Assembly (NCBI GenBank): GCA_947500645.1
Contig: CANMSD010000001.1
Location: 620,001-684,000 of the forward strand
DNA: 64,000 bases
Direction: 5' to 3'
Source of the DNA: an uncultured Erythrobacter sp.
GTDB lineage: Bacteria > Pseudomonadota > Alphaproteobacteria > Sphingomonadales > Sphingomonadaceae
Below are positions 11,411-12,625 of the stretch, in pieces. Numbering within the stretch: the stretch's first letter is position 1; every line of letters starts with the position of its first letter. The translations under genes were made by a program, and so were the position numbers. The notes below the pieces were generated by a model. The model worked only from the letters and a program-made list of their open reading frames with translations. It did no database searches and had not been told where the DNA came from.

Positions 11411-11476
11411 TTGTGAGTCCTCGCGAGGGTGGGGACCTCCCGCCAATTAGCACAAGGCTCCCGCCTTCGCGGGAGC
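11411..11476. repeat. Palindrome cluster after the small ORF
   Basis: Two GC-rich palindromes: CCTCGCGAGG (11419-11428, perfect) and the hairpin GCTCCCGC-cttc-GCGGGAGC (11457-11464 with 11469-11476). The second resembles the CCCGCCTTCGCGGG repeats scattered between genes in many sphingomonads. It has no good T tract, so it is a weak terminator candidate for the plus-strand operon. Together with the next element it fills the 198-bp gap before gshB. Confidence 0.5.
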
Positions 11477-11493
11477 GCACATTCTCTTTAATT

Positions 11494-11585
11494 CGTCATG
11501 CTGAACTCGGTTCAGCATTCATCTTTCGCACGACGTAGAAGGCACAGCGCAGGGGATGGACCCTGAACCAATTTCAGGGTGACGA
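11494..11585. repeat. REP-like palindromic element, copy 1 (3' side of gshB)
   Basis: Left arm CGTCATGCTGAACTCGG continues to GTTCAGCAT (11494-11518). Right arm runs from ACCCTGAACC to CAGGGTGACG (11560-11584). The arms are inverted copies of each other, and each is also a hairpin: ATGCTGAA/TTCAGCAT on the left and ACCCTGAA/TTCAGGGT on the right. The closing pairs differ between arms but stay complementary within each arm. It touches the gshB stop codon. Confidence 0.7.
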
Positions 11586-11589
11586 TCAG

Positions 11590-12552
11590 CTAGAACTCCG
11601 AAACCCGCCCCTCAATCGCGTCCCAGATCATCCCGGCGGTATCCGTGCCGTTGAACTTATCGATGGCGACGATCCCGGTAGGCGACGTCACGTTGATCTC
11701 TGTCAGCCATTTGCCACCGATCACGTCAATCCCGACGAAAGTCAGGCCAAGCCTTTTCAGTTCCGGACCCATCGCCTCGCAAATCTCGCGTTCGCGGGTC
11801 GTGAGTTCGGTGGCTTCAGCGCTGCCGCCCATTGCCAGATTTGAGCGGAACTCGCCCTCGCCCGGTATCCGGTTGATTGCGCCCGCGACTTCGCCATCGA
11901 CCAGCACGATGCGTTTATCGCCTTCAGACACTTCGGGGAGGAACGGCTGAACCATATGCGGCTCGGGCCAGGTCTGGTTGAACACTTCGAACAACGCCGT
12001 GAGATTGTCACCGCTTTCGGGCACGCGAAAAATCGCCTTGCCGCCATTGCCATGGATCGGCTTGACCACGACTGCGCCATGCTCGGCCATAAAGCGCTTC
12101 ACCTCGTCCGCAGAGCGCGTGACAAGCGTCGGCGGCATAAACTGCCTGTAGTTGAGCACCATCACCTTTTCTGGTGCGTTGCGGACATTGGCCGGGTCGT
12201 TGACGACCAGCGTCTCGTGCTGAATGCGCTCGAGCATGTGCGTCGCGGTAATATAGCCCATGTGAAACGGGGGGTCCTGACGCATCAGCACTACGTCGAT
12301 GTCTTTACCGAGATCGAGCCGTTCAGCGGCGCCTTTGGAGAAATGGTCACCTTCGACGCGCCGGACCGTCACGGGTGAGCATTCGGCGTAAAGCCGGTCA
12401 TCCGCGTCAAGCGTCAGGCTCTCGACATGATATTCGCAAATCGAATGCCCCCGCTCCTGCGCCGCGAGCATGAGTGCGAAACTCGAATCGCCCGCAACAT
12501 TGATATTCTCGATTGGGTCCATCTGGACGGCAACTCTGAGCGACAATTCCAT
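11590..12552 (-). CDS. gshB: Glutathione synthetase
   Basis: Joins gamma-glutamylcysteine and glycine with ATP to make glutathione. The 320-residue product has the prokaryotic GshB N-terminus (RVAVQMDPIENINVAGDSSFALM), MRQDPPFHMGYI, the ATP-grasp loop VVVKPIHGNGGKAIFR, and the C-terminal metal and substrate region FVGIDVIGGKWLTEINVTSPTG. The length is normal for the family. It stands alone, with a REP-like element on each side. Confidence 0.97.
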   Translation of the reverse strand: MELSLRVAVQMDPIENINVAGDSSFALMLAAQERGHSICEYHVESLTLDADDRLYAECSPVTVRRVEGDHFSKGAAERLDLGKDIDVVLMRQDPPFHMGYITATHMLERIQHETLVVNDPANVRNAPEKVMVLNYRQFMPPTLVTRSADEVKRFMAEHGAVVVKPIHGNGGKAIFRVPESGDNLTALFEVFNQTWPEPHMVQPFLPEVSEGDKRIVLVDGEVAGAINRIPGEGEFRSNLAMGGSAEATELTTREREICEAMGPELKRLGLTFVGIDVIGGKWLTEINVTSPTGIVAIDKFNGTDTAGMIWDAIEGRVSEF

Positions 12553-12556
12553 TCTC

Positions 12557-12625
12557 CGTTCACCCTGAGCTTGTCGAAGGGTGTTTCGCGGTTGGTACGT
12601 GCTTCGACAGGCTCAGCACGAACGG
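12557..12625. repeat. REP-like palindromic element, copy 2 (5' side of gshB)
   Basis: Arms CCGTTCACCCTGAGCTTGTC (12557 on) and GACAGGCTCAGCACGAACGG (ending 12625) form a near-perfect inverted repeat of about 27 bp. Each arm is also closed by its own pairs: ACCCT/AGGGT on the left, GTGCT/AGCAC on the right. This motif is one I recall as abundant between genes in sphingomonads and xanthomonads. It occupies almost all of the space between gshB and yraN, so any gshB promoter must overlap it or lie within yraN. Confidence 0.75.

Follow-up and report, generated by a model that had tools for sequence, protein, structure and literature searches.

Hairpin dimers beside a gshB gene of Erythrobacter and small GIY-YIG nucleases as their candidate partners

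A glutathione synthase-like gene (gshB) of an uncultured Erythrobacter sp. is flanked by two palindromic elements, A and B, in the 64,000-nucleotide stretch of DNA analysed here (the window; Table 1). What kind of repeat are these elements, and which enzyme handles them? They are interpreted here, with a probability of roughly 0.6, as gene-less REP-like hairpin dimers, the hairpin being the probable recognition site of a matching GIY-YIG nuclease of ~100 amino acids through which the dimers would have spread. The gene names gshB, yraN and nuoG were read from the sequence, without a family-library test.

Table 1. Coordinates of the elements around gshB (window positions) and of the small GIY-YIG genes of the same genome (contig positions)
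Feature	Position	Strand	Description
Element A	11493..11585	.	Heterodimer of two convergent hairpins with CGTC tag and 62-nt spacing, within an outer stem TCGTC/GACGA
Left hairpin of A	11498..11518	+	GCTGA type, ATGCTGAAC-TCG-GTTCAGCAT
Right hairpin of A	11560..11580	-	CCCTGA type, ACCCTGAA-CCAAT-TTCAGGGT
Third hairpin, class C	11457..11476	-	Core GCGAAGGC, stem CTCCCGC..GCGGGAG; dRS3/CGTC-1-like; adjoins element A
gshB-like gene	11590..12552	-	Glutathione synthase; between A and B, part of neither
Element B	12556..12625	.	Heterodimer of hairpins with CCGTTC tag and 37-nt spacing, within an outer stem CCGTTC/GAACGG
Left hairpin of B	12562..12582	+	CCCTGA type, ACCCTGAGC..GAAGGGT; core CTGAGCTTGTCGAAG at 12565-12579
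Right hairpin of B	12599..12619	-	GCTGA type, GTGCTGAGC..GAAGCAC; core CTGAGCCTGTCGAAG at 12602-12616
A-bracketed GIY-YIG gene	C4:230340 (L030 1278-1577)	-	Between A hairpins
GIY-YIG gene	C3:634654		Beside dRS3-like (class C) hairpins, both copies on one side
GIY-YIG gene	C3:162794		Between CCCAGCG hairpins

Both elements were read off the sequence and their inverted repeats were also recovered mechanically, confirming the preliminary description of two elements that each hold two convergent hairpins in a long inverted repeat, with a GCTGA-type and a CCCTGA-type arm. The CGTC tag of element A is found at 11494-11497 and its complement at 11581-11584; it is constant in 28 aligned elements save for scattered changes. 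The stems of A have 9 and 8 bp, the loops 3 and 5 nucleotides, and the tail is CCA in the right arm and TCA in the left one. As single-stranded DNA, A and B fold with z scores of -3.7 to -4.7 relative to shuffled sequences. The minimum-energy fold of A is four-way and cloverleaf-like with two hairpins, unlike the best fold of B, which pairs arm to arm. The class C hairpin that adjoins A would be expected 0.02 times by chance in shuffled windows. The right end of B (GAACGGAGA, window 12620-12552) abuts the start of gshB and ends similarly in five congeners that carry a B dimer; judged from its position it may provide the gshB ribosome-binding site.

Element A corresponds to the definition of the CGTC-tagged REPs (Di Nocera et al. 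2013, BMC Genomics 14:522, PMC3733652) and is a heterodimer. It shares with them the CGTC tag, an 8-9 bp stem starting with A-T, a short loop and the CCA tail, as well as the occurrence of head-to-head dimers, heterodimers, intragenic copies and many copies in relatives. The hairpins of B, in contrast, lack the CGTC tag and carry CCGTTC, and two further features depart from the published repeats: the hairpins enclose small GIY-YIG genes, and the gene-bearing pairs have like arms. CGTC-type hairpin repeats occur over many phyla. They were reported without a dedicated enzyme, and the 2013 survey, which equated the dRS3 repeats of Neisseria with CGTC-1, left open both which enzyme acts on them and why unlike partners are so common in their pairs (PMC3733652). 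The class C hairpins found here have the dRS3 layout (ATTCCC-N8-GGGAAT form) and lie beside a GIY-YIG gene (C3:634654), whereas the cores and loops of A and B are different. A literature search with the repeat sequences themselves gave no match, and the only Rfam family found in the window is a tRNA.

Motifs unique in the genome would have refuted the preliminary description; they are not unique. The genome holds 13 exact copies of the B core CTGAGCNTGTCGAAG (none with the reversed pattern as control), a second complete A dimer with the identical 62-nt spacing (C3:238919/238981) and single A hairpins. The 13 B cores are all on contigs C1 and C3, with none on C2, a contig of ~1 Mb. Among 121 genomes of the taxonomic family, A occurs in 59 (up to 215 copies) and B in 79 (up to 154 copies), the reversed-pattern controls being near 0. 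Both families are patchily abundant, the copy number of B ranging from 0 to 117 within the window's genus.

Copies also come and go. The B dimer in the gap between yraN and gshB is present here and in 5 of 22 congeners, the gap being short and empty in most others, while element A downstream of gshB is found in this genome only when compared to the same 22 congeners. The two elements therefore look to have settled near gshB independently. They do flank this single gene, as was first noted, but the arrangement is not special, and they are not one design built around gshB: A and B are two families, tagged CGTC...CCA and CCGTTC, that go with different nuclease clades. The spacer sequence of the B dimer is common to the occupied congeners, which suggests either an older insertion that was later lost in places or a preferred site of insertion; this genome has a different spacer. 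A single-hairpin insertion is seen in nuoG (G000:C1:512882), where 24 nt inserted in frame correspond to one B hairpin unit and are absent from 26 aligned congeners, 24 of which have a plain gap at the site and two have unrelated short residues. It lengthens the protein by ASTGSGQ-type residues.

Stem pairs covary over many copies, in line with the compensated closing pairs within arms that had been described from the two elements alone; the paired differences are kept in other copies. In 92 A copies two closing pairs alternate between C-G/G-C and T-A/C-G with 99% Watson-Crick pairing. In 170 B copies pairs 2-4 are of several types and 84-93% paired, far above shuffles. The core and loop (GAACYTGTTTC for A, GAGCYTGTCGA for B) were fixed by the search pattern; the unpaired flanks, GTC..CCA in A and CCGTTC in B, are strongly conserved. 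Such a pattern is what one would expect of a site that is recognised in hairpin form. The view of these repeats as REP-like, many-copy elements with selection on the hairpins is supported. Wobble pairs and A-C mismatches, compared with regard to selection on RNA or on DNA, number 35 and 21 overall (p 0.08), with the opposite sign in class C, a mixed result on which no conclusion is based.

The arms of short dimers are rarely alike. Like arms are found in 2 of 55 short gene-less A dimers, against 19 expected (0/2000 shuffles), and in 4 of 40 short B dimers, against 10.5 expected (20/2000 shuffles), whereas the pairs that bear a nuclease gene have like arms in 8 of 12 cases for A and 15 of 17 for B. 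A scan of named bacterial genomes, which overlaps in part with the family set, yielded 131 short A elements from Pseudomonadota, Bacteroidota, Elusimicrobiota, Melainabacteria, Nitrospirota, Chlorobiota and Caldisericota; 21 have like arms (43.1 expected), or 9 of 66 when one element per genus is taken (20.8 expected), with no depletion in Bacteroidota alone. The difference in closing pairs between arms, noticed at first in A and B, is thus general to gene-less dimers across most genera. With unlike arms the calculated advantage of the long arm-to-arm hairpin falls from 19.4 to 7.4 kcal/mol. Arm-to-arm and two-hairpin forms are about equal in calculated energy in the two A elements of this genome; in most A elements the arm-to-arm fold is calculated to be more stable even with unlike arms. 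The interpretation preferred here is that selection disfavours pairing between the two arms; a two-end code with a function of its own is a possible alternative.

The enzyme most closely tied to these hairpins is found between them. Some convergent pairs are spaced ~370 nt (A) or ~320-370 nt (B) apart and contain a GIY-YIG nuclease gene of ~100 codons. Conversely, of 93 small GIY-YIG genes retrieved from the family, 80 are bracketed by convergent inverted repeats (score of at least 12), as are all 24 in a second gene set from the window's genus. None of 300 random intervals and a single one of 95 same-locus intervals are bracketed in this way. The hairpins that go with type I proteins (YILAS..GTLYIGVTS) are of the A, the dRS3-like (GCG.A.GC) or the CATTGCGAGC kind. 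Those of type II proteins (Y.LRC.DGSYYTGHTD), B included, have a GAGC..GTCGA core. On the protein tree, whose few columns limit the finer branches, the split between the two types has a support of 100 and all but one of the 16 A-class nucleases group in a single clade; the hairpin class changes 12 times, against 45.4 with shuffled labels, a few of the class labels resting on short patterns. Genomes with more small GIY-YIG genes tend to have more hairpin copies (rho 0.68 across the family and 0.42 within the genus, uncorrected for phylogeny). Three genomes have at least 10 copies and no small GIY-YIG gene, two of them being incomplete assemblies. Searches with the nucleases gave no match in NCBIfam and, in the PDB, only a weak one to UPF0213 (1zg2, E 0.059). 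Hairpins of yet another class, CGTCATTGCGAGC..GCAATCC, enclose the genes of a separate type I clade (AVYIMAN/S..GTLYTGVTSDLP; loci L193, L454, L462, L463 and L465).

The genome under study has three small GIY-YIG genes (Table 1); a fourth match has a frame of 676 codons, the length one would expect of UvrC. For A, the genome itself has a small single-domain GIY-YIG gene that goes with hairpins of the same kind; for B, such a gene is present only in relatives. The A-bracketed protein, the candidate partner of A, reads YID where its relatives, including the congener counterpart (L452), read YIG, and may be inactive. No type II gene is found among the three, so the B elements look orphaned and are probably relics.

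Bracketing, clade matching and arm matching all point to the small GIY-YIG nucleases, which are the strongest candidates for the enzyme of these hairpins that has long been missing. If this is right, many unexplained intergenic palindromes of alphaproteobacteria and beyond gain a candidate enzyme and mechanism. The nearest known counterparts of these nucleases are presumably the Ssn proteins of Neisseria, a lead only; a 2025 paper reportedly describes Ssn as GIY-YIG enzymes that cleave DNA in single-stranded form at a dispersed repeat. By that description, the two would be alike in their small single-domain GIY-YIG protein and dispersed hairpin target; the bracketing and the arm-matching patterns are observations of the present analysis. 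If the Ssn link stands, a nuclease-repeat pairing is already known in outline, and the present work contributes the bracketing, the matching of clades to hairpins in the family, the separate CCGTTC family and the pattern of like and unlike arms. The organization also recalls the REP/BIME-RAYT systems (GTAG REPs, REPtrons and REPINs), with their inverted hairpin pairs of often unlike partners, an enzyme gene flanked by repeats and persisting orphan copies, but tag and enzyme fold differ (GIY-YIG here, HUH/Y1 there).

The nuclease would recognise the hairpin as single-stranded DNA through the fixed core and loop and the fixed unpaired flanks (GTC..CCA or CCGTTC), the outer stem being free to vary as long as it pairs. 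Cutting beside the hairpin might occur at replication, repair or DNA uptake, and the hairpin-ended strands could then be copied or joined into gaps, which would spread nuclease-carrying and gene-less dimers. In short dimers unlike closing pairs would weaken arm-to-arm pairing, so that each arm forms its own hairpin and the element is kept from becoming a long, unstable palindrome. Nuclease-carrying pairs, with arms 320-400 nt apart, would escape this problem and keep matched arms. A bolder extension is that each small GIY-YIG gene makes up, together with the hairpins matched to it, a minimal mobile element of a class of its own (a CGTC REPtron and CCGTTC counterparts) moving by hairpin-guided single-strand cutting, like arms marking the nuclease-bearing unit and unlike arms the stabilised gene-less copies. 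This is put forward tentatively, the odds being against it; if true, it would provide the CGTC REPs with their missing enzyme and account for their heterodimers.

Bracketing and clade matching would also fit a nuclease that has no role in spread but tunes DNA uptake and recombination at dispersed hairpins, its genes homing into hairpin sites. The excess of hairpin copies over nuclease genes and the Neisseria precedent, in which Ssn reportedly acts in this way at its target repeat, agree with this explanation. By itself it accounts neither for new single-hairpin insertions such as that in nuoG nor for matched versus unlike arms, and it is considered unlikely, if worth serious attention. An RNA function at transcript ends (mRNA stabilisation, attenuation or termination) of elements without mobility of their own would suit the position of A between convergent genes and of B within a co-directional gene run, and REPs are reported mostly downstream of genes (PMC3733652). 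The patchy copy number (0 to more than 100 in one genus), the insertion inside nuoG and the nuclease bracketing speak against it and render it improbable, as does a scan for intrinsic terminators (GC-rich hairpin and T run) that was not above chance, its one weak match at 11498-11518 comparing with 1.4 expected in shuffles.

Mobilisation as ordinary REPs by a RAYT, suggested at first and in keeping with the REP-like pairs of inverted hairpins, is very improbable. No linked RAYT exists in this genome, where Y1_Tnp has 0 matches (controls positive), and Y1_Tnp occurs in only 22 of 121 relatives. Copy number does correlate weakly with Y1_Tnp, but rho is 0.28 (computed with 23 positive genomes for 22, the result being unchanged), compared to the 0.68 for small GIY-YIG genes. 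The GTAG tag is absent, the flanks being GTC..CCA in A and CCGTTC in B, and the survey of CGTC repeats likewise found no tyrosine transposase gene flanked by them (PMC3733652). Terminal inverted repeats around a short non-coding body are also what MITEs of a DDE transposase would show. This origin is the least credible: a single half-element inserts alone in nuoG, no clear target duplication is seen, and the gene repeatedly found between these ends codes for a GIY-YIG protein.

Other arrangements of the dimers occur. Outward-facing B pairs, minus then plus, are spaced 56-63 nt apart (loci L040, L058 and L313); here the CCGTTC parts pair on the inside, as if the four-way fold had been permuted. 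Short A dimers are also repeated in tandem, four at a 163-nt period in Sphingomonas echinoides (L339 68-633) and three at an 86-nt period in Pedobacter rhizosphaerae (L357 6924-7155).
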